The translations under genes were made by a program, and so were the position numbers. This document shows, piece after piece, positions 22,022-52,555 of a DNA stretch of 64,000 bases (position 1 is the stretch's first letter; each line of letters starts with the position of its first letter). The stretch comes from Oceanicoccus sp. KOV_DT_Chl (GTDB lineage: Bacteria > Pseudomonadota > Gammaproteobacteria > Pseudomonadales > Dasaniaceae). Location: contig NZ_FQLF01000002.1 in NCBI RefSeq assembly GCF_900120175.1, forward strand, positions 2,170,001 through 2,234,000. The letters are read 5' to 3'. Under the pieces are notes generated by a model. The model made no database searches. It worked only from the letters and a program-made list of their open reading frames with translations, and was not told the DNA's origin.

Positions 22022-22168
22022 ATGGGGGTTAGAATGCTGTGGTTAAGAGTAAGAGGATTTAATTCGGCAGAAACAAATGATATAATGTTATATCAAAGAT
22101 ATTAATAGTGGCTTGATCTAGCCATTAATTCAATCTAAGTGATTGATAAATAAAGTTTTTAGGTGAAT

Positions 22169-35503: not shown

Positions 35504-35591
35504 TATCGATTGTTAAAATGTGTAAAAGCAGTTGCTAAGCCTATCGGATTTGGCGAAGGTGGGTCATTGTGTTTATCCCACTGGATGTGTC

Positions 35592-37781: not shown

Positions 37782-38432
37782 CTAAGATTTGCTTTTGCCT
37801 TTTTCAAAGATATCAATCACCGTAGACATCATTTTCATTAAGCTGTCCCAGCCCTCATCAGTAGAAATGTCGATGCCGTTGAAGGTCGGCGATTGTTTCG
37901 CTCTCAGTGCCAGATAATTGGATGCCGCATGAATAATAAACAGCAAGGCGATATGGTCTTCATCCTGTAAGGGCGTGGCCGAGGTAAAAATCTCTTCGTG
38001 GGTTTTGCCAATTTGATTGCGTACATACTCAGCAATTTTGCTGAGCTTGTTATTGGGTTGTAGTTCTTCCGCAAAAATTTGTTGTGCCAGCCAGTTGTCT
38101 TTAATCATGGTGGCGTAATTAATATGTACGGCTTTAAGTTGCTGCTGAATTGATTGTTGCTGAAACTCTGCCATGGGCGAGCCGATAATCTCTTCAACGT
38201 CAGGGATGAAGTGGCTTTGTGCTACCCAGGCATCGGCTAAACCTTCCAGCCCACCAAAATATTCATAAATAAGTCCTTTGCCGACCCCGGCTTCTTTGAC
38301 GATAGCGTTAACACCGACATGAGCAATGCCGTCCCGTTTCAGCACTCTTTCAAAGGCTTTGAGGATTTTAGCTTCTGTGGCCGCGCGTTTTAACGGCCCT
38401 TTGCCTAGTTTTTTGTCTTTGGTGGTAGTCAT
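37782..38432 (-). CDS. TetR/AcrR family regulator
   Basis: A 216-residue repressor. The HTH is at residues about 15-60 (AATEAKILKAFERVLKRDGI, VNAIVKEAGVGKGLIYEYFG). A helical ligand-binding domain follows, and the C-terminal tail is basic (EKGKSKS). It is divergent from a TonB receptor gene; the 325-base gap holds two TGACC-N4-GGTCA palindromes that are very likely its operators. It probably represses the receptor cassette and itself. The ligand is unknown. Confidence 0.92.
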   Translation of the reverse strand: MTTTKDKKLGKGPLKRAATEAKILKAFERVLKRDGIAHVGVNAIVKEAGVGKGLIYEYFGGLEGLADAWVAQSHFIPDVEEIIGSPMAEFQQQSIQQQLKAVHINYATMIKDNWLAQQIFAEELQPNNKLSKIAEYVRNQIGKTHEEIFTSATPLQDEDHIALLFIIHAASNYLALRAKQSPTFNGIDISTDEGWDSLMKMMSTVIDIFEKGKSKS

Positions 38433-38537
38433 TAGATCCAGTCTGGCAAAAATAGCCGCTATTTATACCCTATGGGAGTAAAAACCCAAAACCTGTGTTC
38501 ATGAAATGTGAATTAATACTACTAACTATAGAAAATA

Positions 38538-38551
38538 TGACCGCAAGGTCA
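38538..38551. promoter_or_regulatory. Probable TetR operator 1
   Basis: TGACCGCAAGGTCA is a palindrome of form TGACC-N4-GGTCA, about 106 bases upstream of the TetR start. Confidence 0.7.
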
Positions 38552-38602
38552 ATTTTTTATTGAACCCCCGGTAAAAATGCACTATCTTTTGCTTGGTATA
38601 TT

Positions 38603-38616
38603 TGACCAAGTGGTCA
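38603..38616. promoter_or_regulatory. Probable TetR operator 2
   Basis: TGACCAAGTGGTCA repeats the same TGACC-N4-GGTCA pattern, 65 bases (about six helical turns) from operator 1 on the receptor side. Confidence 0.7.
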
Positions 38617-38756
38617 GTTTTACTATGCTTTATCTTAAGATCGCTGTCGCTGAAGGCTTGGATGGGTTGCTGTTGGATGGATAAATAAAGGTCCGGTGCC
38701 GCGTTCTAGTATGTACTTATCAAAGTGTGGGTCTATCAATAACCAAGGGGAACATC

Positions 38757-41405
38757 ATGTTTAAACGCTCCAACCTATCGTGGGGAATTAAGAGTGCATT
38801 GGCTGCTGCGGCAGTGACTGCAATGAATACACCTGCCTTTGCGCAGAATGATATTAATTTAGCTATAGAAGAAATTATTGTTACTGCCCGTAAAACGGAA
38901 GAGAACATGCAGACCATTCCTATGGCGATGGATGCGATCTCTACGACGACTATTCAGGAAAAGGGTGTAAGCAATATCGAAGATGTTGCCCAACTGTCAG
39001 CCAGCTTAGTGTTTGATACCGGCTTAATGCCTAATGATACCCGTCCGGTTATTCGCGGTGTGTCATCTACGCGCGGTCGCGCCAATGTGGCGACGCTGAT
39101 TGATGATGTCGATATTACCAGTGAAGCACTGACCACCGGTGGTGGCGGTATTACTGCCAACCTGCGGTTAATGGACCTAGAGCGTGTTGAAATTGTGAAA
39201 GGACCGCAGAGTGTCCTGTACGGCCGCAGCGCATTTACTGGTGCGGTAAATTATGTGACCAAAAAACCAGAAGAAGAATTTTCTGGTGTCGTCGATGTGA
39301 ATCTTGACGAACACGGTACTCAGGAAGCCAAGTTAAGTGTCACCGGCGCATTGACTGAGACTATTTCGGCGCGTGCTACGGTTTCTTCATGGGAAACCGA
39401 TGGCTGGTATGAAAACCCAAACACCGGTGGTGATTTGGGTGATGGCGATAGCACCGGTATTAGCTTGTCTGTGCAGTGGGCGCCTACCGATGAGTTCACC
39501 GCATTGGTATCAGGTACATACAGTGATGAGCATTACGGGTTGCGGCCCATAGTGAATTTACCAGCTATTGATATAACCCAGTCAGGGATGTTTGGTACCG
39601 GTGTGGTTAATCCCGGCAATGAGTCGCTACCCGTATTGACGGGTAATGCTACTGCTGATGCCGGCATCGCTGCGTACTGTGCTTCCGATTTTGCCGCTTC
39701 TGCACCTTATGCTCATTTGTTCGATCCATCAGGTAACACGCCCGCATGTATTCCTCAGGCAGTAGGGAAAGTGGATGCCAGCGAGAGTCAGTTGGATTTG
39801 AGTCCAGATACTCGCACCGGTAAAGATTTCAAAGGAACGGATGTTGAATCCACACGTTTGGCGTTAGATTTACGTTGGGAATTTGAAGATTATGAATTTC
39901 GTTCTATTACTGGCTATACCGAAAACACGAGCAAAACTGAAAATGATTTTGATCAAAATAACTATGATCAAACCGACTGGTTTGGCCAGGGCGCTTTTGG
40001 ATTTTCGGCCATGGGTAATATCGAGCATGACGTCGAGCAAATCAGTCAGGAATTTCGTTTCTTGGGTACTGCGGGAGATTTCGATTATTTCTTAAGTGCT
40101 CTTTACTGGGACGAAAAAATGAAAACCGATGAGGGCAGTAAGTTTTGGGCGAGACAGGGCTCGGTAGTAGATCCTTCGCAAGACTTTTTCGTACGCGGCC
40201 CTGACTTTACTATCGATACCATCAACTTGGATCGTGAAACTGAACACAAATCGATTGCCGGGTCTTTGACTTACAACCTGGAAGATTGGAGCTTCACTGT
40301 TGAAGGGCGCTACTTGGAAGAAGATATTGACTACAAGGGCAATAACTATGATCTAGGTGCTTATACATCAACGGGTGGAGAGGCTTGTGGCTTTGGTTTA
40401 TTTGCACCATCACCCACGGACTTTGCAGTAGTGGGTGGATTATTTGATACCGTGTTCGGCTTCCCAACTAACCCCGATGCGACTTTGGAAAATGGTTGCG
40501 GCACTTCAGAAAATTCGGTGAGTGCCAACGAATTTGTGCCACGTGCCTCTGTGAATTATCAAATCAATCGGGATGCGATGGTTTACCTGACTTATGCCGA
40601 AGGCTTTAAACCAGGTGGTGTCGTGACGACTGATGCAAATGGTGAAGTGTCTCAAGGTGAATTTAAACCAGAATCGGTTGAGTCTTTAGAGCTGGGTTTC
40701 AAAACCGCTTGGATGGCCAATAGCTTGACCTTTAATGGCGCTATTTTTAATTACGATTACACCGATCAGCAAGTCAGTATCACTTCGCAAGAACCTGGTG
40801 AGCCGGCGCAATCGCAAGTTGTTAATGCTGGTGAAAGCACCATCTTCGGTTATGAATTTGATCTGGCTTGGCAGGCTACTGAAGCGTTGTCGATGAGCAT
40901 GGGCTATGTATACGCTGACTCTGAGTATGACAACTACAACCTTACTGAAATCGCTGCATCAGGCGGCTTGGCGGGTACTGCGGTGCTGTCTGATGCCAAC
41001 CTGGCTTTAGCGGGTAACTCGGAAGGTGATTTCTCAGGTAAGCAGATGGCGCTGTCTGCCAAACATGCGGCAACAGTCGTTATTCGTTATGAGCAGCCAG
41101 TATTGGACAATCTTTGGGCCATCGCAGAAGTGAACGGTTCTTATCAGTCCAAGCGTTTTGTGGATGACGGTAACAACGCTTACCTGCCCTCCCATCAGTT
41201 ATGGAATGTTCAGCTAGGTGTCAATGGAGATAACTGGAAAGCAATACTGTATGTCGATAACGTATTAGATGATGACACTATTCGCAGTGGTTTAAATAAT
41301 ACTGATTACGGTAATTTTGTTGGCTTCCAGGAATTACCAAAAGCGTTGAGCTTGGTGTTACCACAGCCAAGAACTACTGGAGTTAGATTCTCCTATCTGT
41401 TCTAA
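38757..41405 (+). CDS. TonB-dependent receptor A
   Basis: Outer-membrane receptor of 882 residues. The ATG at 38757 has an AAGGGGA site. The signal peptide ends A-F-A, followed by a TonB box-like IEEIIVTARKTEENMQTIPM. The plug has DTRPVIRGVSSTRGRANVAT and RVEIVKGPQSVLYGRSAFTG. The barrel ends in LPQPRTTGVRFSYLF with a terminal Phe. It is strongly similar to receptor B at 46.3 kb through the plug (shared RGRANVATLID) and the C-terminus. The TetR gene is divergent and a multi-spanning membrane protein follows. The substrate is unknown. Confidence 0.93.
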   Translation: MFKRSNLSWGIKSALAAAAVTAMNTPAFAQNDINLAIEEIIVTARKTEENMQTIPMAMDAISTTTIQEKGVSNIEDVAQLSASLVFDTGLMPNDTRPVIRGVSSTRGRANVATLIDDVDITSEALTTGGGGITANLRLMDLERVEIVKGPQSVLYGRSAFTGAVNYVTKKPEEEFSGVVDVNLDEHGTQEAKLSVTGALTETISARATVSSWETDGWYENPNTGGDLGDGDSTGISLSVQWAPTDEFTALVSGTYSDEHYGLRPIVNLPAIDITQSGMFGTGVVNPGNESLPVLTGNATADAGIAAYCASDFAASAPYAHLFDPSGNTPACIPQAVGKVDASESQLDLSPDTRTGKDFKGTDVESTRLALDLRWEFEDYEFRSITGYTENTSKTENDFDQNNYDQTDWFGQGAFGFSAMGNIEHDVEQISQEFRFLGTAGDFDYFLSALYWDEKMKTDEGSKFWARQGSVVDPSQDFFVRGPDFTIDTINLDRETEHKSIAGSLTYNLEDWSFTVEGRYLEEDIDYKGNNYDLGAYTSTGGEACGFGLFAPSPTDFAVVGGLFDTVFGFPTNPDATLENGCGTSENSVSANEFVPRASVNYQINRDAMVYLTYAEGFKPGGVVTTDANGEVSQGEFKPESVESLELGFKTAWMANSLTFNGAIFNYDYTDQQVSITSQEPGEPAQSQVVNAGESTIFGYEFDLAWQATEALSMSMGYVYADSEYDNYNLTEIAASGGLAGTAVLSDANLALAGNSEGDFSGKQMALSAKHAATVVIRYEQPVLDNLWAIAEVNGSYQSKRFVDDGNNAYLPSHQLWNVQLGVNGDNWKAILYVDNVLDDDTIRSGLNNTDYGNFVGFQELPKALSLVLPQPRTTGVRFSYLF

Positions 41406-41452
41406 ACCAGTCCCACGCCATGTGATGTCAACTATCCTCACATGGATCTTTA

Positions 41453-41488
41453 CCCCACCGCTATTTAACGATAGTGGTGGGGGTTTTT
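41453..41488 (+). terminator. Strong terminator after receptor A
   Basis: CCCCACCGCTAT pairs with ATAGTGGTGGGG (one G-T pair) around a TTAACG loop, followed by a T-run. Confidence 0.9.
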
Positions 41489-41574
41489 AACTCATTTCAT
41501 CTAATCAAAAAATATTCTTAGGTAGTGTTTTTCGATTAGCTGTAAATAAAAAATTAAGTGTGTTTGAGGTTTTT

Positions 41575-42516
41575 ATGTCGTCTGAAGTGAATCCATCGTT
41601 GAGTATTATCAATAATTCAAGCAATAATCTAATCAGTATCTTTCGCAAGCCCCCCGTGTTGGGTTTATTAATTATTGTGCTGATGTTTTGCGAAAAAATG
41701 TTGATGCATAGTTTTACAGTAATCACTTTATATGTTTTGCCGGAACCCTGGAAGTGGATTATCCCTGCTATTACCGGAGCGATAGGTATGTGGTTGGTGG
41801 TTCGTGGCATGGGCCGTGATGAGGTAAAAGGCTCGCTTTTAGGCTATACCGGTGGTTTTTTGATTTGGGTGTCCTGGATGGAATCCGCCATGCCGATTAT
41901 TGGTCATGGTGCGAATATTCCGATGGTGCCGGCTGCTGATGGTGGTACACAAGGCGGCTTTCTTGGCGAGCATGTGTTTATGCAAGCATCGGGTGTGTTT
42001 TGTATCATGACATTGATATTCATAATGTTTAACAAAGATGTGCGCTGCCGGATGTTGTTATGGATTCGCCGCGCGTTGAGAATGGATGCCAGTGTATTAG
42101 GTAAGCCTACCCAAGGGTATCGTCCCAATGTGGCTCGCGTAGCGGCTTTTGAATATTTTTTCGTAACCTGGTTTATGTATGTATTAATGCTAGTCATCGT
42201 TGATCCCAGAACCTTTGGTTTGCATCATCCCGTGACCTACACCTTGTGTGCCTTGGTAGTGATTTGGGGTTTGTATTTAATGTATAAACAAACCCAACAG
42301 CGCGAAGTCGGCTTATCCATTCGTTATGGTATAGGCGCTACCGGGGTAGCCTGGTTTATACCCGAGTGCGCGCAATTCTATGGTGAGTTCTATGAGTTTT
42401 ACTTGTATGCCAATAAGCATCCGGTAGCTATGACTATAGTGTTATTCCTGTTTATAGCCATTTTAAGATTATTGTGGTTAACGCCAATCAATGAAAAGAC
42501 ACAGCGATCTTTATAA
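41575..42516 (+). CDS. Multi-spanning membrane protein A of a receptor-linked family
   Basis: A 313-residue inner-membrane protein with roughly seven to eight hydrophobic helices. I do not recognise a named family. It is clearly a paralogue of the protein at 51.6 kb: both have N-x-x-V-R-C-x-M-x-x-W-x-R-x-x-L-R-x-D in a cytoplasmic loop, a helix ending D-P-R-x-x-G-x-x-H-P, and E-x-Y-L-Y near the C-terminus. Each copy follows a TonB receptor of the same type. ATG 41575 follows GAGG. It may move the imported substrate across the inner membrane, or sense it. That is inference from context. Confidence 0.72.
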   Translation: MSSEVNPSLSIINNSSNNLISIFRKPPVLGLLIIVLMFCEKMLMHSFTVITLYVLPEPWKWIIPAITGAIGMWLVVRGMGRDEVKGSLLGYTGGFLIWVSWMESAMPIIGHGANIPMVPAADGGTQGGFLGEHVFMQASGVFCIMTLIFIMFNKDVRCRMLLWIRRALRMDASVLGKPTQGYRPNVARVAAFEYFFVTWFMYVLMLVIVDPRTFGLHHPVTYTLCALVVIWGLYLMYKQTQQREVGLSIRYGIGATGVAWFIPECAQFYGEFYEFYLYANKHPVAMTIVLFLFIAILRLLWLTPINEKTQRSL

Positions 42517-42578
42517 TCTAGTTTTGGTATAGGTTTTTATATGCGCTTAATGTTAGAAAGATAAAGGCTAACAGTAGT

Positions 42579-43715
42579 ATGCAACAATATGTTCCAGAGT
42601 TTATGGAGTTGATATATGACTCTGTGGCTGATCCGCGTGGTTGGGAGACATTCTCACGTCGAATGATGGATGTATTGGATGCTGATTTTTGCCATACTTT
42701 AATTACAGATTTTGAAGACCCGTCGCATAATTACGGGATTCATATTGTGCAAGAAACCGGAAGCGTAAAATCTTATCAGAAAACTATATTTGATGAAGGC
42801 TTGGTAGAAAAAATTCTACAAAACCAATCAGAGATTGAATGCTTTAAGGGTAATGATTTTTTATCTCAAGCGGAAAAGTATGGAGGCTTAGGCCGAGATG
42901 TATTTATCGATGGTAATAAAAACACCAATTTCATGGTTTCCTTTATCAGGACTCGGCAGGACCCAGCATATTCAGTAGTTAATGTTTATGGTCGACGTGA
43001 AGGTAAAGAAAGTTATTCTCGAGAAGAATATGAGTTCTTAGCCGGATTGCTACCCCATATCAGAAGAGCTTATAGGCTGTCGGTTGATGTCAGTTACACC
43101 GAAGAGTTAAATGGATTTGTAGTCCGTTCTTTAAATCATATAGCTGCAGCAGTTTTTATTATTTCCCACCGTGGTGGCGTGGTGGCGATGAATGACGTGG
43201 CCGGGCGCTATATTGCGAATGGAGAATTTTTTGTGCAGGGAAACAAATTACTTGTTAATGCTGATGGTATAACTGAAGTGCTTAATAGTGCTCTGAGATC
43301 AATGGTCGAAGCAGAATCGCCCGAAGGTGAATATATTAAGTATGTTAATAATAGCGGTAAAAAGTTTTTTATTTCCTGCTTGCCTCATATGAATAAAAGC
43401 GGCGATGTTTCCAGGGAATGGCGCCTGAGTGATGGCGCTCAAAACCTTGTTTTTATTACTGATGAATCTACATCTATAGATTTGCCTTGGGATAAGTTAA
43501 AGTCCCTGTATGGCTTAACAGAATCTGAAGCAAAAGTTGTGGGGATGTTGGTGAATGGTAGTTCTACTGAAGATATAGCAACTGCACTATCAATAAATTC
43601 AAATTCTGTTCGTTATCATTTAAAAAATTGTTTTTCAAAAACGTATGTTAATAATCAAGCCGAACTAGTTGGCTTGATCCTCCGTACTTTAGGCAATCTC
43701 CCTCGTATAAATTGA
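42579..43715 (+). CDS. LuxR family regulator with PAS-like N-terminus
   Basis: A 378-residue transcription factor. The C-terminal LuxR HTH is at residues about 315-370 (LYGLTESEAKVVGMLVNGSS, IATALSINSNSVRYHLKNCF). The N-terminal region has a helix-rich opening (FMELIYDSVADPRGWETFSR) and a PAS-like central part (NHIAAAVFIISHRGGVVAMN). This layout is common in helix-turn-helix regulators beside TonB receptors in marine gammaproteobacteria. It lies between the two receptor cassettes and could control the VPLPA-CTERM genes downstream. The ligand is unknown. Confidence 0.9.
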   Translation: MQQYVPEFMELIYDSVADPRGWETFSRRMMDVLDADFCHTLITDFEDPSHNYGIHIVQETGSVKSYQKTIFDEGLVEKILQNQSEIECFKGNDFLSQAEKYGGLGRDVFIDGNKNTNFMVSFIRTRQDPAYSVVNVYGRREGKESYSREEYEFLAGLLPHIRRAYRLSVDVSYTEELNGFVVRSLNHIAAAVFIISHRGGVVAMNDVAGRYIANGEFFVQGNKLLVNADGITEVLNSALRSMVEAESPEGEYIKYVNNSGKKFFISCLPHMNKSGDVSREWRLSDGAQNLVFITDESTSIDLPWDKLKSLYGLTESEAKVVGMLVNGSSTEDIATALSINSNSVRYHLKNCFSKTYVNNQAELVGLILRTLGNLPRIN

Positions 43716-43746
43716 TATCTTTTTGATATTATATCGCCCATAAAAA

Positions 43747-43765
43747 ACGCGCCCATAGGGCGCGT
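43747..43765 (-). terminator. Hairpin with the T-run on the minus strand
   Basis: ACGCGCCC and GGGCGCGT (8 bp) flank an ATA loop. The A-run lies before it, so it is a canonical terminator only for leftward transcription. No leftward gene is upstream of it, which is odd. It may simply be bidirectional. Confidence 0.6.
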
Positions 43766-44351
43766 AAAGCGTGGGATAGAATTATGAAAACAAAAATTAA
43801 CCGTTTTCAAATTCTGTTGCCTTTTAACTAAAAAGACAGCGTATATATAATCACAAAAATCCGAAATCAGTAATACCCATTTGGGTAGTGGTTATTAGTA
43901 ATATTTTTTTGTGTAAAGCTTTAAGAAAAGACGCAGAAAACTTGTCATCCTATGTGCTCTTCATTTAATCATATCTTTGCCGAAAAACTTTACACTCGCG
44001 ACGTTTGGGTCATTTTTTTATATATGACCATATGGTGAAAAAATAATTAACGCACTGCTCATATGGGTAGTAAATAAATAATTATTAATATTGAATGGGT
44101 AGTAATTTGATGGGTGTTTGTCATCGTGACAACAATAAATTGACGCAATAATCTTCGGCTTGGCCAATTCGACGGCAACTTTTACAGAGAAAATATTTTC
44201 GGTGTGCTCGTTAATGCTATAGAGCTATATCTTTTTCCTAGCTCTTTGTTACTAAAGGTTTTTTTTATTCTGGCACGTTGTTTGATATGTCCTTTTCACC
44301 GATGCATTTAGATTCATCGGAAATATTTCGTTTAACAATAATTTTAATCGA
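43766..44351. other. AT-rich non-coding region
   Basis: About 590 bases without a credible gene. It is very A+T rich, with scattered short stems. It presumably carries the promoter of the riboswitch-controlled VPLPA-CTERM transcript. Confidence 0.4.
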
Positions 44352-44481
44352 TACGGAAAAAGCCAAACCAGTTGTGAGGCTGGGACGGAAAGCCAACGGA
44401 TCTTCAAGCTAGTAGTTCTTTTCTAAAAAGAGCATCAAGGGAGCGATGTGATATTGGAAAGCGGAAAAGATGGCCGGGTCA
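44352..44481 (+). ncRNA. Cyclic-di-GMP-I (GEMM) riboswitch
   Basis: The 5' half has the GEMM core: AAAGCCAAACC, a stem CCAGTT/GGCTGG capped by the GNRA loop GTGA, then GGGACGGAAAGCC. The 3' half has ATGGCCGGGTCACC, matching the conserved GCCGGGT part. A second stem joins GGATCTTC (44398-44405) with GGAAAAGAT. The distance to the ATG is about 30 bases. GEMM-I RNAs bind cyclic-di-GMP and control surface, motility and matrix genes. The one base that differs from the commonest form (GGGACGG for GGGACGC) should be checked by covariance search. Confidence 0.8.
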
Positions 44482-44482
44482 C

Positions 44483-44505
44483 CCTTTGAGTTAATAACCT
44501 CGAGG
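44483..44505 (+). promoter_or_regulatory. Hairpin that may mask the ribosome site
   Basis: CCTTTGAG (44483-44490) can pair with CTCGAGG (44499-44505) with one bulged T. The 3' arm contains the GAGG ribosome site of the VPLPA-CTERM gene. This would fit translational control by the riboswitch. Confidence 0.5.
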
Positions 44506-44513
44506 ATATAACA

Positions 44514-45269
44514 ATGAAAAAACAATTACTTTCGGCGGCAATTATCGCCGTTGCAGCGTCTAGTGCAAACGCAACACTTTATTACGCACAGGTACAAAAT
44601 GTAGACATTTACAGCTCTGGCCAATTTGGTGTTGATACCATGTATGAATACAGCAAAATCGATGGTGATGGCGGCTTGGCAAGCAATCAGTTCGTGACTC
44701 CACCGCCGATTCCTGGTTTTTCAGCGTTTGCTCCAGGCAACATGGTATATGACAGTGATACAGGTGTTTTTGCCTGGACTGGCGACATCCACTTGGATGG
44801 CGGCGCAGCAGCTCATGAAGTGGTTTTGTCTGACGGTACTATCGATACTGCTAATATTCTAGGTCAGCCAAATGGTATCACTACCGGATCTGCTACATGT
44901 ATTGACCTATCAACTTACGGCGCATGTGGTCCCTATGGCTGGAACTCTGGTTCCTGGAACTGGGCTGACCTTACTGTGACTGGAGCGGGTGTTGGTTCTA
45001 TTTTTTCTCTTGGTGATAGCGCCGATTGGAATACGCTGGATGCAGACTTAGCTACTCGTGCAGCTGAGTTAGATGCATACGGTGTTGCGTTCAGCCCTGT
45101 TTCTGTATTGCAGGATTCAGGTTATCACTACCGCATGAATATTCAGCTTATGGCTATTGCTCCTCCTGAAGCGGCTATCTCTGCTGTGCCTGTACCTGCA
45201 GCAGCCTGGTTGTTTGGTTCAGCGCTATTAGGTCTTGCTGGTATTGGTCGTAAGCGTAAAGCTGCTTAA
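44514..45269 (+). CDS. VPLPA-CTERM surface protein 1 (riboswitch-controlled)
   Basis: A 251-residue secreted protein. The signal peptide (ending about residue 20, A-N-A) leads to TLYYAQVQNVDIYSSGQFGV. A conserved cysteine pair lies in CIDLSTYGACGPYGWNSGSW. The tail is VPVPAAAWLFGSALLGLAGI plus basic residues: the exosortase sorting signal. It is about half-identical to the next gene by eye, a tandem duplication. The GEMM riboswitch upstream suggests surface display under cyclic-di-GMP control. No exosortase is in the window. Function is unknown; a matrix or attachment role is plausible. Confidence 0.88.
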   Translation: MKKQLLSAAIIAVAASSANATLYYAQVQNVDIYSSGQFGVDTMYEYSKIDGDGGLASNQFVTPPPIPGFSAFAPGNMVYDSDTGVFAWTGDIHLDGGAAAHEVVLSDGTIDTANILGQPNGITTGSATCIDLSTYGACGPYGWNSGSWNWADLTVTGAGVGSIFSLGDSADWNTLDADLATRAAELDAYGVAFSPVSVLQDSGYHYRMNIQLMAIAPPEAAISAVPVPAAAWLFGSALLGLAGIGRKRKAA

Positions 45270-45314
45270 TTGATGGTGTTTTCAGTTAACACACTTTAGG
45301 TGTGGATCAAGGGA

Positions 45315-45345
45315 AGTGGTCACTGTTACTAGTGGCCACTTTTTA
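45315..45345 (+). terminator. Terminator between the two VPLPA-CTERM genes
   Basis: AGTGGTCA pairs with TGGCCACT (one G-T pair), followed by T residues. It may lower expression of the second gene relative to the first. Confidence 0.75.
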
Positions 45346-45363
45346 TATGTCTAGGGTTAAATC

Positions 45364-46140
45364 ATGAAAAATCAATTTCTTGTGGCAGTAATGTTGTTTG
45401 CTGTCGCGCCTGTGGTTAATGCCACGCTTTACTATGCCAAGATTATCAATGTAGATATTTATAGTGCAGGTAATTTTGGTATGGATGCCGTCTACGAATA
45501 TTCTACTGCGCCTGGCGGCGGCGGTGATCCTGATGGCGGTTTAGCGGGTGCACAATTTAAAACTCCTCTTCCTCCGATTCCCGGTGTTACCGCGTATGCC
45601 CCAGGCAATCTATTTTACAACGATGTGACAGGGGTTTTTACCTGGTCTAACGATCTTATTATGTTGGGTGGGGCCGCTGAGCATGATGTGGTGTTGTCTG
45701 ATGGCACCATTGATACCAATACTATAGTTGGCCAGGACAATAGTGGTGATAGCTCAATTGGTACTAATAGCATTACTTCAGGTAGTGCAGTCTGTATTGA
45801 TAATTCCAGCTATGGTGCATGTGGGCCAAGCGGTTGGAGTGCGTCTTCCTGGAGTTGGAATGACCTGACCGTCGTCGGCTCAGGAGTTGGTGCAATTTAT
45901 AAATTTTCTGACACATCGGATTGGAATGATCTTGATGATCAGTTAGCGGTCCGTGCGCAGGAGCTTGCTGATTTTGGCGTTGCTTTTACTAATGCAACTG
46001 CTATGCAGGACTCAACTTACCATTATCGTATGAATATTGAAATAGTGGCAGTAGCAGTGCCGATTCCAGCAGCCGCGTGGTTGTTTGCTTCTGCTTTATT
46101 GGGTCTGGTTGGTATGGGGCGTCGCAGGGCAGCGAAATAA
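45364..46140 (+). CDS. VPLPA-CTERM surface protein 2
   Basis: A 258-residue paralogue of the preceding gene. It has a signal peptide (ending V-N-A), TLYYAKIINVDIYSAGNFGM, the CIDNSSYGACGPSGWSASSW cysteine pair and a VPIPAAAWLFASALLGLVGM tail with basic residues. It carries a small glycine-rich insertion (APGGGGDPDGG) and an extra IVGQDNSGDSSIGTNS loop relative to copy 1. A terminator-like hairpin separates the two, so copy 2 may be read through weakly. It lacks its own obvious riboswitch. Confidence 0.87.
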   Translation: MKNQFLVAVMLFAVAPVVNATLYYAKIINVDIYSAGNFGMDAVYEYSTAPGGGGDPDGGLAGAQFKTPLPPIPGVTAYAPGNLFYNDVTGVFTWSNDLIMLGGAAEHDVVLSDGTIDTNTIVGQDNSGDSSIGTNSITSGSAVCIDNSSYGACGPSGWSASSWSWNDLTVVGSGVGAIYKFSDTSDWNDLDDQLAVRAQELADFGVAFTNATAMQDSTYHYRMNIEIVAVAVPIPAAAWLFASALLGLVGMGRRRAAK

Positions 46141-46321
46141 AAAATATCGCCAGCAAGTTAGCATTAAGAGGCTCATCCTTGATGCGCTATAAAAGAAATT
46201 TAAGCGGTACAGCTCCTGCGTAATTTTTTCCTCGTGGTGGTTATTACATACCGTTGTTCTCAATTAAATACGCTGTCAGTGTAATTTATTTGTTTTGTCA
46301 TTTTGTCTTCAGGTGTAAAGA

Positions 46322-49300
46322 ATGAAAGATGTTTATCAAAAGAATTTAATGGGTGGATTATTAACCCTGAGTTCTGTGTTAGTTGCCAGTGGGGTTTGCG
46401 CCCAATCAAATTATGCAATTGAAGAGGTTGTGGTAACCGCGCGCAAGGGCGCTGCTGAAGATATGCAGTCAGTGCCTTTAGCCATTAATGCGCTGTCCGC
46501 GCAGATGATTCAGGAGAAAGGCATTTCCGGGGTTGAGGATATCAGCCAAATGGTCTCAGGTTTAGTATTTGATTCCGGTTTATTACCTAATGATACCCGT
46601 CCTACTATTCGTGGCTTATCGACAACCCGCGGTCGAGCCAATGTGGCTACACTAATAGATTTTGTAGATGTTTCTAGCGAGGCGTTATCAACGGCTGGTG
46701 GTGGCATGACCGGAAATATGCGGCTCACTGATCTTGAGCGCGTAGAGGTGGTAAAAGGTCCTCAGTCCGTTCTTTATGGCCGTTCGGCATTTAGTGGCGC
46801 AATCAATTATATTACCAAACGACCATCGCTAGAATTTGAAGGCGCAGTAGATTTTGATGTCAGCAGTGTTGAAGATGATTTAAGTGAATGGAACGCGAAT
46901 GAATTAAAATTGAGTTTAAGTGGCCCCATTAATGATGAGCTGGGCTATCGTATTAATCTGGCACGCTCTGAAGGAAACGGCGCTTACGACAACCCTAATA
47001 CGGGTGGCGATCTGGGTACTGAAGATACTCTGGGTGCAGCTTTTGCATTATTGTTTGAGCCTAACGATATACTTTCTTCCTATACGCGCGTTGAATACAG
47101 TGATGAAGAATATGGCCCTAGGGCACAGGTTTTACGGAGAACTGTAGATCATACTCCCGCTCTGGGTGACTATTTTAATGACGGCACTGTTGCCGGAAGT
47201 GGCTTGGATACGGGTAGATCATCAAACCCGAATTTGACGGTTTATGATGGTCGTGCCGTTACCTACAATCAGGGGCAATTTTTTCAGCAGGGCGTAGAAA
47301 ATAGAGCTAGCGCCTATTATGCGAATGATTTACCGCAGTCAGTTCAGGATGCTCTGGGGGTAGCCCCGGGCGATCCAATAGTTGATTGTAGCTTGTCGCA
47401 GGTTCCCTACCGTAATAGAAATGCAGCTGGTTTATTCCCCGGGTCTGCTGAAAAGCCAGGTGCCAATCAACTTTGTCGTCCGATGCTGGTGGGTGCACAG
47501 CACGCCGATGCGTCTGAGATAGATTTTTCTGCTGATCCACGTACGGGTCGTGATTTCCGTGGCACTGAATTAGAAAACCTTCGCTTGCATCAACAGTTTG
47601 ATTTTAACTGGGATACTTTTCAATTCAGTTACATCGGTGCTTATACCCGCAATAAATCCAATATCCAGGAAGACTTTGATTTAACCGACTACTCACTTTA
47701 CAGCGGCACGCTGATTGATGACGACGGCACTGCGCCAACCGGTATCAATTGTAATGGCGATGATCGAGCCGTAGCGGGTGACTGTATAGCGCAATACGGG
47801 TTTCAGACAGCTATGGATATGACCTATGACCTGGAGCAGGTTAATCATGAATTTCGATTTTCCGGACAGCAGCAATCATTTCAATGGACGGTTTCTGTAC
47901 TTTATTGGGAAGAAGAATTAAATACAGAAATGGAGGATCGCTGGTGGTTGCGTGAGGGTGGTACGGACCTGGTGAATAGCGCCTTTGTAAACCCCGGCTT
48001 ATTTCTTGGTGGTTTGCCTTATCTTGATGAAGATGCTGATCTGGTTAATGACAGTCGCGACTGTATGGGCGCTGATAGAGGTGACATTACCAAAGGTTGT
48101 TACGTCACAGCCGCCGATTACTTTAGTACTAGCCCGGTTACAGACTGGTTATCTCGCGAGACAGAACATATGTCGTTGGCGGCAATGTTTACCTATGACG
48201 TATCAGAAACATTAAGTGTCACTGTTGAAGGGCGTTATCTGCAAGAAGATATTATTTATGCAGGTAGTGGCTCTGAGTTACATGGTTTGTCTTCTGCGTT
48301 TGGCAACTGTGGTGGATTTATGTCTACTGCTATGGGTGCTTATGAAATAGATCCAAACGATGTTTATCCCTTTAATGGCAGTGGCAATGGGAGTACGGCT
48401 GAAGCATTACCCGATACGCAGCTTGCAGGAGCATTAAAACCGGATATTCATGGTGAGTGTGAGGCTCAGCGTAATGAATTGCCGACAGTGGAAGAGTTTG
48501 TGCCGCGTTTCAATATTACCTGGTACCCAAACGAAGATGTGATGATGTACTTCACTTATGCGGAAGGCTTTAAGCCTGGTGGAGTAGATACAACGAATGC
48601 ATCCAGTTTGGTTCGCGATACGGATTTGGACAAGGATACTGAGTGGGCCGGCTACGACGTTGATGGTGATGGCATTATCGGTTCTGATTCAAATGTGGAT
48701 TTTGATGATCGAATTGCCACCGGTTATGCTGAGTTTCAGCCTGAGTACGATCCGGAAAAGCTGAAAACTTATGAGGTGGGCGCTAAAACGACTTGGCTAG
48801 AGGGTCGGGTCGTTTTAAATCTGGCTGCTTTTTATTATGAATATACCGATCAGCAAACGTCTATTTTAGTTGAAAACGGTGCTGGTTTTCCTGCTCCTAA
48901 AATTGTCAATGCCGGTGAAACGATTGTTGAAGGCGCTGAATTTGATATTACGGCTCGTTTAACCGAGCGTCTGACCGCAACATTGGGCTACACCTATTCT
49001 GATGCCTACTACGAAGATTTCAACACCGCCAAAATAGCCGGCGGTCCTGCTTCCAGAAGCTCTATGGCGGATGCCGGCAATGTTGATGGAGATTACACCG
49101 GTAACAGAATGCCTTATTCCGCGCGTGATGCCATTACCTGGAGCTTGCGTTATGACACTGATTTTGAATCCGGGATGAGTAGCTTTGCCGAGTTGAATGG
49201 CAATTATCAATCGAAGCGATTTATGACGCCGGGTAATATTTCCTGGTTGCCACAATATCGGTTGGTTAATTTTATTTCGGGTATCGAAAGTGATACGTGG

Positions 49301-49471
49301 AGCGCGGTATTTTATATTAATAACTTAATGAATGACGATACGTTGCGTTCAGGTGTCACCAATACTGATTACGGCTTTGGCGCATCCTATGAGTTTGATT
49401 TGCCACAGGCAGCAAATTTAATACTGCCAACGCCGCGAACTTATGGTCTTCGTTTGGGGTATCGTTTCTAA
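46322..49471 (+). CDS. TonB-dependent receptor B
   Basis: A 1049-residue outer-membrane receptor, longer than receptor A by about 170 residues because of large extracellular insertions, some cysteine-bearing. The signal peptide is followed by IEEVVVTARKGAAEDMQSVP. The plug has DTRPTIRGLSTTRGRANVAT and RVEVVKGPQSVLYGRSAFSG. An aspartate-rich stretch (DTDLDKDTEWAGYDVDGDGI) resembles a calcium-binding loop, and the barrel ends LPTPRTYGLRLGYRF. It is a close relative of receptor A. A PKD lipoprotein and membrane protein B follow. Confidence 0.93.
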   Translation: MKDVYQKNLMGGLLTLSSVLVASGVCAQSNYAIEEVVVTARKGAAEDMQSVPLAINALSAQMIQEKGISGVEDISQMVSGLVFDSGLLPNDTRPTIRGLSTTRGRANVATLIDFVDVSSEALSTAGGGMTGNMRLTDLERVEVVKGPQSVLYGRSAFSGAINYITKRPSLEFEGAVDFDVSSVEDDLSEWNANELKLSLSGPINDELGYRINLARSEGNGAYDNPNTGGDLGTEDTLGAAFALLFEPNDILSSYTRVEYSDEEYGPRAQVLRRTVDHTPALGDYFNDGTVAGSGLDTGRSSNPNLTVYDGRAVTYNQGQFFQQGVENRASAYYANDLPQSVQDALGVAPGDPIVDCSLSQVPYRNRNAAGLFPGSAEKPGANQLCRPMLVGAQHADASEIDFSADPRTGRDFRGTELENLRLHQQFDFNWDTFQFSYIGAYTRNKSNIQEDFDLTDYSLYSGTLIDDDGTAPTGINCNGDDRAVAGDCIAQYGFQTAMDMTYDLEQVNHEFRFSGQQQSFQWTVSVLYWEEELNTEMEDRWWLREGGTDLVNSAFVNPGLFLGGLPYLDEDADLVNDSRDCMGADRGDITKGCYVTAADYFSTSPVTDWLSRETEHMSLAAMFTYDVSETLSVTVEGRYLQEDIIYAGSGSELHGLSSAFGNCGGFMSTAMGAYEIDPNDVYPFNGSGNGSTAEALPDTQLAGALKPDIHGECEAQRNELPTVEEFVPRFNITWYPNEDVMMYFTYAEGFKPGGVDTTNASSLVRDTDLDKDTEWAGYDVDGDGIIGSDSNVDFDDRIATGYAEFQPEYDPEKLKTYEVGAKTTWLEGRVVLNLAAFYYEYTDQQTSILVENGAGFPAPKIVNAGETIVEGAEFDITARLTERLTATLGYTYSDAYYEDFNTAKIAGGPASRSSMADAGNVDGDYTGNRMPYSARDAITWSLRYDTDFESGMSSFAELNGNYQSKRFMTPGNISWLPQYRLVNFISGIESDTWSAVFYINNLMNDDTLRSGVTNTDYGFGASYEFDLPQAANLILPTPRTYGLRLGYRF

Positions 49472-49565
49472 AAAAATAATTCATGCCAGATTATTTGTTG
49501 TAGTTGAATAATAGGGTCGACTGTTGGTAACAATTTTAGCCGTTGTAGTTTGAAGGTGGTTTGCA

Positions 49566-51545
49566 ATGTTGAATAAAGTAGTTTCATTTTTCTCAGGTAT
49601 TTTTTCCAGATTTTTGGTTGCAAGCTGTGCGTCATCGCTGATGCTTATGGGGTGTGGAGGTAGTGATAGTAGTGATGCTGAGCCAGTGCAAACGGATAAG
49701 CAGGTCCAGGGGGCGGCGGTTAAAGGTCCGCTGGTTGGTGCAGATGTTAACGTATATACCATTGATTATAGTGCCACAGGGTTAAAGGACGAATTAATAG
49801 CTACTGGCATGACGGATGACAACGCAGCTATCAGTGGTGTGCAAATACCTGCTGCAGATGTTTCTAAAGGGCCGTTTATCCTTGAATTTATTAATGGTCA
49901 GGAATTGAACGGCAGTGATCCCGTTATTCCTGTATTAACAACCTATGTGACGGCTGAGCAAATTATTAATGGAGAGGCTATTTATGCAACGCCTTTAACT
50001 ACCTTGGTTATAAACTTGGCTGAAAATTTAGGTGATGATAGTGTCACTGCTGGAGAGTTTTTTAATTCGATGCAGTCGGCAATAGAAAAAGTTAAGGTCA
50101 GTTTTGGTTTTGGTTTGTTAGATGACAGTATAGATATTTTTACCACTTCGCCCATTTTTACCAGCAGTGACAATCAGGATAAGGCACTAAAATATCGCGC
50201 GGCATCCGAAGCCTTTTCAGCCTTAATAGTAGAAATACAAAAGCTGGCTGGTGCTAGTAATACTGATGTACTGGTTGCGGCATTGGCTGAGGATATGTCT
50301 GATGGTGAGCTTGATGGCGTTAAAAATGGTGTGGCGATTAGCGCTTTAGCTAGTGTTGTAAACCTGGATCAGGTGCTGAAACAAAATACATCATTGCTGA
50401 AGATACCCGGTACAGAGACTCTGCTATCAAATTTGAGCAGCTTAATGACTACTGAGTCAGCAAGTATTAGGCCTGGAACCACAGTCGGCGCATTGGTTGA
50501 GCCTGTTATCGGTGTGGTTCATCTTACTCCCATTAATAACTCACCGGTTGCCAATGCGGGTGCCGATCAGGGTGTTACTGTATCCCAAAAGGTGGTACTT
50601 GATGGCGGCGCCAGTAGCGATGCCGATGGCGATGTCTTAAGTTTTTCCTGGCGTTTCATTGCTATGCCCAATGGCACCTCTGTCAGTCTGGTTAATCCCA
50701 ATTCAGTCAATCCGGAATTTACGCCTGATGTGCTGGGTGATTACAGTCTTGAGTTAACCGTGAGCGATGGTCGAGGCACTATTTCAACCGATTTGGTTTT
50801 GGTGGTGGCGGGTGCATCGAATAACGCACCTGTCGCAGATGCTGGTGTAGATCAATATGTCGCTATTCCTGCATTAATAACATTGGATGGCAGTGCCAGT
50901 ACGGATCAGGAAGGGGATACATTAAGTTTTCGCTGGGAAATTACCAGCATGCCCGCTGGTTCTGCCGCCAGTTTATTAAGTGCGACAGTCGTTAGCACAT
51001 CCTTTACTGCTGATGTGGCAGGCGCCTATGTAATAACCCTGATGGTGAGTGATGGCGAGTTAGATAGCGCCGTGGACACGATGACTGTTAGTGCTGCTGC
51101 TGGGAATATTCCACCTGTAGCTGTGCTTACTGGCTCCGCTACCAATGGAAATGATTATGTGGCTAATGAATTGAGCGTTGAGTTGATGCACCAGATTTAT
51201 CTTGATGCAGGTGATAGTTTTGATCCAGATGGTGGTGATTTGACTTATTCCTGGGCTATTTCAAATGCGGATACGGGGGTTACGGTAGATGATATTTCGA
51301 CGTTAACCACCGACTGGATTGGTATTCTTGCAGGGACGACTGAAGGTGATATTACCCTGACTGTTACCGTCAGTGATGGTGAACTACAAGACTCGGCATC
51401 AATTGTTGTCCATATCCAAAAAACAATTCCAACCAGTGGTAGTTTTATGTTCGGGTCGCTTATCCTGCTGTTAGCGTTAAGAAAAAAACGTGCTATTCGT
51501 AGATACTGGCTGAATTTATGGGCTGAATTAAATAGTGCCAAGTAG
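49566..51545 (+). CDS. PKD-repeat lipoprotein with C-terminal anchor
   Basis: A 659-residue lipoprotein (lipobox L-M-G-C about residue 30). The first 300 residues hold a carboxypeptidase-like beta fold (AAVKGPLVGADVNVYTIDYS). Then come three PKD/Ig-like repeats of about 95 residues, each with the V-A-x-A-G-x-D-Q and VSDG pattern (two clear, one diverged). The end is SGSFMFGSLILLLALRKKRA, a hydrophobic helix plus basic cluster reminiscent of sorting tails such as GlyGly-CTERM. Both a lipid anchor and a C-terminal signal is unusual. It could present a binding surface beside receptor B. Confidence 0.78.
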   Translation: MLNKVVSFFSGIFSRFLVASCASSLMLMGCGGSDSSDAEPVQTDKQVQGAAVKGPLVGADVNVYTIDYSATGLKDELIATGMTDDNAAISGVQIPAADVSKGPFILEFINGQELNGSDPVIPVLTTYVTAEQIINGEAIYATPLTTLVINLAENLGDDSVTAGEFFNSMQSAIEKVKVSFGFGLLDDSIDIFTTSPIFTSSDNQDKALKYRAASEAFSALIVEIQKLAGASNTDVLVAALAEDMSDGELDGVKNGVAISALASVVNLDQVLKQNTSLLKIPGTETLLSNLSSLMTTESASIRPGTTVGALVEPVIGVVHLTPINNSPVANAGADQGVTVSQKVVLDGGASSDADGDVLSFSWRFIAMPNGTSVSLVNPNSVNPEFTPDVLGDYSLELTVSDGRGTISTDLVLVVAGASNNAPVADAGVDQYVAIPALITLDGSASTDQEGDTLSFRWEITSMPAGSAASLLSATVVSTSFTADVAGAYVITLMVSDGELDSAVDTMTVSAAAGNIPPVAVLTGSATNGNDYVANELSVELMHQIYLDAGDSFDPDGGDLTYSWAISNADTGVTVDDISTLTTDWIGILAGTTEGDITLTVTVSDGELQDSASIVVHIQKTIPTSGSFMFGSLILLLALRKKRAIRRYWLNLWAELNSAK

Positions 51546-51556
51546 AGGTTTTAGAC

Positions 51557-52440
51557 GTGACTGAATTATATAAAAATCCACGGTTTGCCTATCTGTGTAT
51601 AGCAATGACATTGTTAGTCATGCCCGTAGCGCATACTGCCTCAATGTTGCTGGAACACATCGCTGATAAAACGCTATGGTTTTATGGGCATATTGCGCTG
51701 GGTTTTATCGGCTTTGCTGTTGTGTGGGTTGGTTTAAAAAAGTCCGAAATTCAGGCCTGTGTATTGGGATTTGTTGGCGCCAATATGATGTTCGTAGGAT
51801 TTTTTGAGTTAATGTTTGCCCTATTCGCGGATGTGTTTAATGTGCAGCCCATATTGGATGCCGAGAGTGGGCAGGTGCTGTTGACGCCATCGCTGCAAAT
51901 TAATGAGGCCTCTATCTTGATTATGTTGCCTCTGTTTCTTTTGACTTACGCAAATAACCAGGTGCGTTGCAATATGATTCGCTGGGTTCGAAAAATTTTG
52001 CGTCTGGACCCGGGTCGGCCTACCGAGCCACCACGTGACCGACCTTATTCGCGAATAGTAGCAATGGAGACGCTATTTATTATTTGGATGATCTATGCAG
52101 TCAGTTTATTAACTCTGGATCCGCGGGTGTTAGGGCCGGCTCACCCTATTACCGGTCTTATTTATCTGGGATTTGTGATCTGGCCTTTGTACCTGCTGTA
52201 TCGCATTAGGAAAATATCCGGTGCTGGCCCGTGGTACGCTACGCGATACCTACCGGTATTATTTTCTGGTCGTGGTTCGAAACGGCTTTCTCGATGGATT
52301 GGATATTTGAATATTATTTATACCCCTTTGAATACCCTGTTAGTAGTGGTGTTACTGCCTTATGCTGCATAGTGAGCTGCTATCTGGTTTTTAACCGGGA
52401 TAAAATCCATGATCCAGGCGGTGTATTAAGTGCGGGTTAG
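51557..52440 (+). CDS. Multi-spanning membrane protein B, interrupted by a 1-base deletion
   Basis: A paralogue of the membrane protein at 41.6 kb, about 294 residues. GTG at 51557 follows GAGGTTTTAGAC, 12 bases after the lipoprotein stop, so they are cotranscribed. Shared motifs are NNQVRCNMIRWVRKILRLDP and LTLDPRVLGPAHPIT. The frame breaks at CCC 52228-52230. Adding one C yields GPVVRYAIPTGIIFWSWFET and the family's E-Y-Y-L-Y-P end, finishing at 52440. As it stands the frame ends at 52372 with an unrelated tail. Function unknown. Confidence 0.75.
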
Positions 52441-52473
52441 TACAGGCTTTGTAAGCAAAGAGTAAGCAATAAG

Positions 52474-52498
52474 AAGGGAACAGTTAAGTTCCTTTTTT
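52474..52498 (+). terminator. Rho-independent terminator
   Basis: AAGGGAAC (52474-52481) pairs with GTTCCTT (52488-52494) and runs into T residues, closing the receptor B operon. Confidence 0.82.
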
Positions 52499-52555
52499 AT
52501 TAGCTGCCACCTCTCTATAATATCCCAGCGACAACAATAATGATGGGATATGGCG

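Follow-up and report, generated by a model that had tools for sequence, protein, structure and literature searches.

The window, the whole stretch of 64,000 nucleotides of Oceanicoccus sp. KOV_DT_Chl DNA that was analysed, contains two genes for TonB-dependent receptors (TBDR), each accompanied by a gene for a membrane protein of an unnamed family (MEM), and between the two pairs a c-di-GMP riboswitch followed by two surface-protein genes. What do the TBDR-MEM pairs do, and does c-di-GMP belong to their function? The first-pass annotation had proposed a cassette present twice and forming a surface uptake or sensing system tied to c-di-GMP. The locus is organised as follows:

37782-38432, minus strand: TetR-family regulator, divergent from TBDR A (PF00440, E 1e-9)
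38757-41405, plus strand: TBDR A, 882 aa (PF07715, E 3e-16; PF00593, E 8e-35)
41453-41482, plus strand: terminator-like hairpin of 13 pairs with a T-rich stretch behind it, in the TBDR A-MEM A gap (consensus scan only)
41575-42516, plus strand: MEM A, polytopic membrane protein of 313 aa from an unnamed family, with about 8 TM helices predicted
42579-43715, plus strand: LuxR-type regulator with C-terminal GerE HTH (PF00196, E 1e-9)
44352-44486, plus strand: c-di-GMP-I riboswitch aptamer (RF01051, 45.2 bits, cut-off 35)
44514-45269, plus strand: VPLPA-CTERM surface protein 1 (TIGR03370, 26.9 bits, cut-off 25.35)
45364-46140, plus strand: VPLPA-CTERM-like surface protein 2 (TIGR03370, 23.3 bits, under the cut-off of 25.35)
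46322-49471, plus strand: TBDR B, 1049 aa (PF07715, E 2e-15; PF00593, E 5e-25)
49566-51545, plus strand: PKD-repeat protein, lipoprotein-like N-terminus by eye (PF22352, E 1e-31, three stretches)
51557-52440, plus strand: MEM B, open frame 51557-52372, family C-terminus in another frame to 52440
52550-53431, plus strand: NmrA-like oxidoreductase, right-hand boundary marker (PF05368, E 4e-25)

We confirmed that the two receptors are homologous. Both exceeded the Pfam cut-offs for the Plug and TonB_dep_Rec beta-barrel domains and thus belong to the TonB-dependent receptors, and they were 37% identical end to end. MEM A and MEM B were also homologous (29% identity over 173 aa, E 2e-25) and shared the R-C-x-M-x-x-W and D-P-R...G...H-P motifs that had been described for them. 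The third motif, E-x-Y-L-Y, lay in another frame in MEM B: the family profile resumed there at 52231-52440, where EYYLY occurs and the C-terminal fragment matched the family (E 8e-10), so that MEM B is apparently frameshifted, either in reality or in the assembly, and the first-pass annotation had read across the shift as far as 52440. The idea of a cassette occurring twice thus held as far as homology is concerned, but the copies are unequal and deeply diverged, with a PKD protein between TBDR B and MEM B and a different construction in the A cassette. The phylogeny of the A and B pairs, suggested earlier as a check, placed them only in part: TBDR B joined TBDR A and its orthologue in the same-genus genome G004 at only 82% SH-aLRT, and MEM B was an unplaced long branch.

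The membrane proteins, which the first-pass annotation could not name, resisted assignment here as well: MEM A and MEM B had no Pfam or NCBIfam match up to E 1, the family profile found no PDB sequence, and the comparison of 13 members with Pfam gave no named family (best E 0.0098, each match in a single member). Exosortase (PF09721), matched by one distant member of the 13 (E 0.0098, 15.7 bits, cut-off 25.7), was rejected; the window resembles an exosortase/PEP-CTERM (VPLPA-CTERM) system in the sorting signal of the two proteins following the riboswitch, the second below the cut-off, and differs from it in that MEM is not an exosortase. Structure prediction was of limited help, the AlphaFold2 model of MEM A exhibiting helices at low confidence (pLDDT 51.8).

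A profile search in which loci were selected by MEM alone recovered 23 loci with 24 MEM genes, window included. A TBDR was encoded within about 2.1 kb of MEM in 22 of the 24 cases, and immediately upstream on the same strand in 15; orientation and gap were preserved at most loci. The two MEM genes lacking a TBDR partner adjoin a UbiD-type gene. TBDR genes being abundant (59 Plug matches in the 4.8 Mb of the window genome), such adjacency could be accidental, and from this density we estimated that chance alone would place a TBDR immediately upstream in about 1% of cases and anywhere within 2.1 kb in about 8%. A single genus contributed ten of the 23 loci, which reduces the number of independent cases; the linkage was nevertheless seen across eight genus codes as well as in L004, L005 and the Bacteroidota record L025, and we regard accident as extremely improbable. 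Since the pairing is conserved in other genomes, the uptake role proposed earlier is likely. The hairpin that follows TBDR A argues against its simple unconditional co-transcription with MEM A. The TetR gene announced at the left end is present, just outside the stretch 38433-52440, and homologues at the equivalent place in L018, L020 and L026 bring it to 4 of the 23 loci; this regulator may control the cassette.

The LuxR gene, the c-di-GMP-I riboswitch and the two VPLPA genes do lie between the pairs, as had been noted. The VPLPA proteins are 55% identical, and the first starts 27 nt after the aptamer. Everything from the riboswitch to MEM B has the same orientation, the successive gaps being 27, 94, 181, 94 and 11 nt, and the intergenic stretches between VPLPA gene 1 and MEM B are free of the 25 listed terminator-like sites. 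This is compatible with a single transcript and could suggest a surface sensing or uptake system whose hallmark is that c-di-GMP controls the receptor, MEM and the surface proteins. However, the other 22 MEM loci carried no LuxR, VPLPA or PKD homologue (E 1e-8, >50% coverage; stretches up to about 21 kb), and G004 exhibited TetR-TBDR A-MEM A-NmrA, the NmrA-like gene directly after MEM A and the receptor 71% identical to TBDR A, without the 10-kb B module at the syntenic place. Furthermore, the pairing of riboswitch and VPLPA genes recurs in the window genome at MEM-free places, so that the riboswitch may target the VPLPA genes only; the aptamer described here is one of at least six RF01051 matches above the cut-off in this genome, with 150 of 362 first-look candidates scored. 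A system defined by c-di-GMP is therefore quite improbable: conservation extends to the TBDR-MEM pair and stops short of the LuxR, riboswitch and VPLPA part, and the link to c-di-GMP falls outside the conserved cassette.

Which compound, then, might be taken up? As in siderophore and heme TBDR systems such as HmuR-HmuY of Bacteroidota, a TBDR is encoded here beside an inner-membrane protein, and at the Prevotella locus L025 a distant MEM gene directly follows a TBDR gene and a HmuY gene (PF14064, E 2e-34). In contrast to these systems, MEM had no match in Pfam to the ABC permease, ExbB/ExbD or PepSY families, and TBDR A and B scored 156.9 and 134.2 bits with the siderophore receptor model TIGR01783 (cut-off 223.5) and 78.1 and 64.4 bits with the hemin receptor model TIGR01785 (cut-off 316.9). 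Unlike in a HmuYR-type heme locus, no HmuY was found among the ten window proteins scanned (37782-53431), L025 being the only locus with this protein.

A new lead to a tetrapyrrole substrate came from gene co-occurrence. In the order sample, the RCC reductase family PF06405 was present in 6 of 7 MEM-positive versus 5 of 383 MEM-negative genomes (Fisher 7e-10), and in family f187 in 11/11 versus 3/133 (Fisher 4e-14); counted by genus, the association gave p-values of 1e-5 and 0.006, respectively. In all 11 MEM-bearing f187 genomes, the match is 3.2-5.5 kb from MEM, within a catabolic cluster. The RCCR-type enzyme at L023:15854-16666 scored 48.3 bits against a Pfam cut-off of 24.9 and matched PDB 3agb (E 4.8e-7), while a second paralogue, L021:3344-4126, scored 17.0 bits, below the Pfam cut-off. 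For genome G539, the protein matched Arabidopsis RCCR structures at E 5e-7 and also, at E 8e-4, a bilin reductase. Among the 23 RCCR-type members longer than 220 aa, 20-23 kept the motif Asp-x-x-Pro-Arg and an Asp-Pro near the C-terminus.

The cluster enzymes thus match both RCCR and the ferredoxin-dependent bilin reductases (PF06405, PF05996). In contrast to characterised RCCR/FDBR, they occur outside a photosynthetic or bilin-biosynthetic setting, in catabolic clusters of heterotrophs with hydrolases and CoA enzymes, and their activity is a prediction from sequence. Among the enzymes scanned were Amdase, CN_hydrolase, HMGL-like and CoA-transferase, joined in G539, over the 60 kb surrounding MEM, by Isochorismatase, Polysacc_deac, Amidase, HpcH/HpaI and a rubredoxin-reductase fusion. 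The PaO family had no match among the scanned proteins, and the single Rieske enzyme scanned, in the extended G539 cluster, was VanA-like (VanA_C). Bilin-reductase relatives are likewise known from non-photosynthetic bacteria in pre-PcyA clusters, described as containing V4R proteins, an Fe-S protein and a globin that binds bilins, in some cases also heme oxygenase; the description of these clusters in PMC10151467 does not mention a TBDR or MEM.

In the window genome, the RCCR-type copies are 26-32% identical to the G539 copy. The bilin-reductase homologue closest to the cassettes lies at a distance of about 38 kb from MEM B, and about 124 kb separate MEM A from the main catabolic cluster. Three genes of the window have counterparts in G539:

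17474-18259, plus strand: GntR-like regulator (by eye), sharing 51% identity with one from the G539 catabolic region
22163-23374, plus strand: FAD monooxygenase-like protein (best NCBIfam models under cut-off), 62% identical to its counterpart in the G539 TBDR-MEM catabolic cluster
28681-29910, plus strand: MFS-like transporter (by eye), 49% identical to one between two Amdase-like genes of G539

Our best explanation, which we hold tentatively, is that the conserved unit is a TBDR-MEM uptake module for tetrapyrrole-type compounds (bilin, chlorophyll catabolite or heme-like), with MEM as inner-membrane partner. The TBDR would carry the bulky substrate over the outer membrane, and MEM, with its eight or so helices and predicted periplasmic Glu/His/Asp/Arg set, would act as a permease or perform a binding or processing step feeding one. 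In genomes with the full cluster, the substrate would be reduced by the RCCR/bilin-reductase homologues and its rings opened, and the resulting imides or acids hydrolysed, isomerised and cleaved to central metabolites. The A cassette with TetR would be the older copy in the window, syntenic with that of a relative, and the B cassette a diverged second copy inside the riboswitch-headed module, so that the surface proteins, and perhaps receptor B, may respond to c-di-GMP.

Several observations count against a tetrapyrrole substrate: the window cassettes are not beside an RCCR gene, G319 has a TBDR-MEM pair without a PF06405 match, the proteins scanned gave no PaO-family match, and the association runs in one direction only, MEM being absent from 5 of 11 PF06405-positive genomes in the order sample and from 3 of 14 in f187. 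The hairpin and the poor AlphaFold2 model were also counted against the explanation as a whole. The RCCR homology is moreover remote and the remaining enzymes generic: FAD monooxygenase, Amdase/maleate-isomerase-like protein, CN_hydrolase, isochorismatase, amidase, CoA-transferase and HMGL would suit many N-heterocycle pathways. The pair could thus import another N-containing or aromatic ring compound, with RCCR-like enzymes recruited to a different substrate, as the L004 locus may illustrate, where a DUF1838 gene and an M24-like gene (by eye) are found instead and the TBDR is only 24% identical to TBDR A. We consider this rather unlikely, given the independent Prevotella locus with HmuY beside MEM and the presence of two or more RCCR-type matches in many positive genomes. 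To our knowledge, all characterised members of the RCCR/FDBR superfamily act on bilins. The account in PMC10151467 is consistent with this.

The role of MEM within the uptake module could also be understood differently. E103, D210 and R212 were conserved in 21/21 receptor-linked members of the alignment and H45 and H218 in 20/21, the exception being L024, the MEM of G319, without both histidines; at E103, D210, R212, H45 and H218, the two members linked to UbiD show D, G, gap, R and gap, in this order. These most conserved polar residues are on the predicted periplasmic side, and genomes with the cluster have MFS-like and SSF genes besides MEM, which could encode the true permeases and count against MEM as one. 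MEM could therefore be a periplasmic-face membrane enzyme or cofactor-binding protein (for instance in redox or metal removal), inner-membrane transport being left to MFS/SSF. We find this possible but doubtful: no known enzyme family was detected (Pfam and NCBIfam for MEM A/B, Pfam for the 13 members, PDB), and inspection of L018 by eye revealed no other recognisable transporter up to about 5 kb from the pair, a weak argument because other loci have transporters or unannotated neighbours.

Tetrapyrrole uptake and degradation is a large part of pigment turnover and, as far as we know, little described genetically. A module for tetrapyrrole-type compounds would give a function and a substrate class to the unnamed MEM family and would tie the RCCR homologues of heterotrophic bacteria to tetrapyrrole uptake and degradation, and the relatives with compact clusters make this reading directly testable. 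It is conceivable, although unlikely, that these genes form a complete, previously undescribed gammaproteobacterial pathway, with import of linear or chlorophyll-derived tetrapyrroles by TBDR and a new transporter family, MEM, RCCR-type reduction, maleimide/mesaconate-type mineralisation and, in the window species, a second importer under a c-di-GMP riboswitch; this would be a bacterial route for the turnover of photosynthetic pigments. Even with a different substrate, an inner-membrane family that is linked to TBDRs and conserves a predicted periplasmic site would offer a new handle on how compounds are handled once past the outer membrane.

The region carries two homologous pairs, each made of a TonB-dependent receptor (TBDR A and TBDR B) and a membrane protein (MEM A and MEM B). 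From left to right in the window we found:

TetR regulator, minus strand
TBDR A
MEM A
LuxR regulator
c-di-GMP-I riboswitch
two VPLPA-type surface-protein genes
TBDR B
PKD protein
MEM B, open frame stopping at 52372
NmrA-like oxidoreductase

The duplication of a TonB receptor with a membrane protein, noticed in the first-pass annotation, was recovered at the protein level: TBDR A and TBDR B share 37% identity, and MEM A and MEM B 29% over 173 aa (E 2e-25). The two surface proteins are 55% identical to each other. The family profile runs on to 52440 in a different frame, so MEM B appears to be a frameshifted gene, in nature or in the assembly; the E-x-Y-L-Y motif previously ascribed to it is present, but lies in this continuation, in the other reading frame.

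Other genes look split as well: by eye, a TBDR gene at 19547-21972 and a cyclopropane-synthase-like gene at 58365-59632; by profile, a red chlorophyll catabolite reductase (RCCR)-like gene in locus L063 (9504-10655); and, partly by eye, L064:603-2890 and the MEM of L018. These apparent frameshift splits in the window's genome and in G004, a genome of the same genus, point to either assembly indels or real decay. L064:603-2890 and the gene at 35532-37745 in the window are large, lipoprotein-like and related-looking by eye, with no Pfam match; a chelatase-like identity for the 717-737 aa protein of 35532-37745 was ruled out, there being neither a Pfam nor a PDB match. A DUF1838-like gene (by eye) starts at the window's right edge (L064:4-507), and a DUF1838 protein lies downstream of the TBDR and MEM in locus L004 (5873-6928).

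The membrane family does remain without a name, as first stated: MEM A and MEM B had zero Pfam or NCBIfam matches up to E 1, and the family profile matched no PDB sequence up to the same E. A Pfam scan of 13 members touched seven families, each in one member only (best E 0.0098). An exosortase identity was rejected, resting on a single sub-threshold match, and a viral scan found no relative. The family is rare and patchy in the genomes searched with profiles A1 and A2, in samples that overlap in genomes: MEM occurred in 2/10 genomes of the window's own family, 7/390 of the order sample, 5/140 of the family of genome G383 and 11/144 of the family of genome G501, and in the window's own genome alone among 274 genomes of the class and 398 of the phylum sample, counts that may be low given the limited number of first-look candidates scored per genome, often 5. 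A contig scan added two loci, L004 and L005, and a search of plasmid proteins brought in a single distant relative, from Prevotella sp. oral taxon 299 (L025/L077, NC_022111.1); loci L071-L076 entered the MEM scan only. The Prevotella record, 1.77 Mb long and filed as a plasmid, is without annotated genes in the stretches shown, and a second place in it was reported by the search. In the trees, MEM B, L024 and L025 form long branches.

The check proposed in the first-pass annotation, how often the family neighbours TonB receptors, was carried out on every MEM found, 24 genes in 23 loci selected by MEM alone, a sample weighted towards one genus, g239 (10 of the 23 loci, hence non-independent). 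A TBDR lies near 22 of the 24. For 21 MEM genes a receptor from one sequence cluster stands within about 2.1 kb: it shares the strand of MEM and lies upstream in 16 cases and downstream in 2, and is on the opposite strand in 3; 15 of the 16 upstream receptors immediately adjoin MEM, the PKD gene intervening at MEM B. The 22nd is the Prevotella MEM, which one HmuY gene separates from the TBDR (verified by Pfam) that precedes it. The two receptor-free copies, homologues in the window's genome and G004, are both beside a UbiD-type gene (called by Pfam on one of the two copies, with the 20-kb stretches checked by eye for TBDRs of other kinds). With 59 Plug matches in the window's genome of 4.8 Mb, the adjacency of TBDR and MEM is not due to chance, and the pairing spans eight genus codes in addition to L004, L005 and L025. 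We hold the partnership of receptor and MEM to be firm, with high confidence. The UbiD-family protein adjoining the receptor-free paralogue (L017:7975-9549, with the Pfam match, and L019:10510-12159) begins with what by eye resembles a twin-arginine lipoprotein signal, which raises the question of an exported UbiD.

The proposed tie to cyclic-di-GMP was not supported as a property of the system. G004 is collinear with the window over about 29.7-61.7 kb, but at this place lacks 35.5-37.8 kb, with the large gene at 35532-37745, and the stretch from behind MEM A (42517) to about 52540, the B module, which was either gained in the window's genome or lost in G004. Among the repeats listed in a search for flanking pairs that might account for an insertion of the B module, all are internal to genes or short and weak. 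Control by c-di-GMP as the core of the cassette was rejected, the module being found neither at the other MEM loci, in the stretches examined, nor at the syntenic place in G004. The riboswitch goes with surface proteins elsewhere in the genome: with 150 of 362 candidates scored, RF01051 occurs in at least seven places, six above the cut-off, and six of the seven (five above the cut-off, one below) stand directly before a gene with a VPVPAAAWLFGSA-type signal at its end, at the following places:

L038
L039
L040
L041
L043
window 44352-45269

Four of these six genes pass TIGR03370 and two fail (21.8 and 25.0 vs 25.35 bits), and the seventh place, the best-scoring, is followed by an unrelated gene of 165 aa. 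Riboswitch control thus seems to belong to the surface proteins, and the genome likely encodes a c-di-GMP-exosortase-substrate regulon, of a kind described by no paper among the literature matches listed. For the riboswitch to act on TBDR B and MEM B as well, transcription would have to read through gaps of 94, 181, 94 and 11 nt between the first VPLPA gene and MEM B; of the 25 terminator-like sites listed, none falls in these gaps.

MEM co-occurs with PF06405, the RCCR family. Among the 390 genomes of the order sample, MEM was present in 7, PF06405 in 11 and both in 6 (Fisher 6.8e-10). For the 144 genomes of the family of G501 the counts were 11, 14 and 11 (Fisher 3.9e-14). This leaves PF06405 without MEM in five genomes of the order sample and three of the family. 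Counted by genus, the only way in which phylogeny enters these tests, p was 1e-5 for the order and 0.006 for the family of G501. The MEM and PF06405 samples were taken as the same genomes from their equal sizes and reused handles, and the PF06405 search left out G766, G778, L004 and L005. None of 14 control genomes had PF06405. The two genes are 3.2-5.5 kb apart in all 11 co-positive genomes of the family of G501, 10.5 kb apart in G410 and on separate contigs in G383; in G004 the nearest PF06405 match, below the cut-off, is about 19 kb from MEM.

The TBDR-MEM pair of g239 is located inside a conserved gene cluster, composed of:

Amdase/maleate-isomerase-like genes
MFS-like gene
TBDR
MEM
CoA-transferase (sub-threshold in NCBIfam, scoring best as succinyl-CoA:mesaconate and succinate:glutarate types)
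HMGL-like lyase
DUF2141 protein
aldehyde dehydrogenase
PrpB-like lyase (below cut-off)
271-aa protein matching PF06405

The 271-aa protein scores 48.3 bits against RCC_reductase (cut-off 24.9) and weakly against Fe_bilin_red, the ferredoxin-dependent bilin reductases (24.6 bits, below the cut-off of 31). Its alignments reach E 4.8e-7 with Arabidopsis RCCR structures and E 8e-4 with a bilin reductase. Homologues of the 271-aa protein across loci amount to 27 ORF matches, one split gene being counted twice; among the 23 longer than 220 aa, an Asp-x-x-Pro-Arg motif and a C-terminal Asp-Pro are kept in 20-23. The 60 kb around MEM in G539 encode an amidase, an isochorismatase, two polysaccharide-deacetylase-like proteins, HpcH/HpaI, a rubredoxin-reductase fusion and, as a separate gene, a VanA-like Rieske oxygenase. 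As the Rieske enzyme is VanA-like, a pheophorbide a oxygenase was rejected for the scanned part of the extended cluster. A CN_hydrolase was identified in L021, with homologues in nine loci (cluster c9). The Polysacc_deac and Isochorismatase proteins may act as cyclic-imide hydrolase and maleamate amidase, candidate roles for which our literature search returned no support. In the titles and abstract openings of the papers listed, which come from journals without subscription and include no preprints, no bacterial TBDR-linked RCCR catabolic cluster is named, which is weak evidence of novelty.

The window's species has many of these pathway genes, with the receptor cassettes outside the cluster. 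Its genome has two PF06405 matches above the cut-off and two weaker ones, one of the latter in a gene about 38 kb right of MEM B that is homologous to Fe_bilin_red (46.0 bits against a cut-off of 31). This gene (L062:9872-10564, PF05996), about 27 kb beyond the window's right end, stands beside two genes that by eye resemble a cytochrome c and a Tat-type thiamine-diphosphate enzyme. Counterparts of the G539 cluster genes (Amdase 76%, aldehyde dehydrogenase 64%, SDR 55%, CN_hydrolase 52% identity, and others) lie about 124 kb from MEM A, around contig position 2.337-2.353 Mb, and further ones are found left of the finding in the window:

17474-18259, GntR-like gene, 51% to G539
22163-23374, FAD monooxygenase, 62% to G539
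28681-29910, MFS-like gene, 49% to G539

Loop charges, hydropathy and a low-confidence AlphaFold2 model of MEM A from four sequences (pLDDT 51.8) suggest that MEM has about eight helices and a cytoplasmic basic R-C-x-M-x-x-W loop, and place E103, D210, R212, H45 and H218 on the predicted periplasmic side. Among the 21 receptor-linked MEM, including MEM B, the first three are invariant and both histidines are kept in 20, the sole exception for each being L024 of G319, which is also the only genome of the order sample to have MEM but no PF06405. In the two UbiD-linked MEM, the positions of E103, D210, R212, H45 and H218 hold D, G, a gap, R and a gap, respectively. The site residues are thus lost together with the receptor neighbour, which fits a periplasmic site that would serve an imported substrate.

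TetR, whose divergent position is kept in 4 of 23 loci, would control cassette A (TetR, TBDR A and MEM A), and c-di-GMP would control the VPLPA genes through an aptamer 27 nt upstream. Judging from generic enzyme families, ring breakdown could pass through imide, maleate/mesaconate and CoA steps; we regard a full degradation pathway as possible, if rather unlikely. By its family, the TBDR would import across the outer membrane, and linkage and topology would make MEM its inner-membrane partner. The co-occurrence with RCCR/FDBR and the HmuY neighbour in Prevotella point to a tetrapyrrole as the candidate substrate, a class which we tentatively regard as the best current reading.
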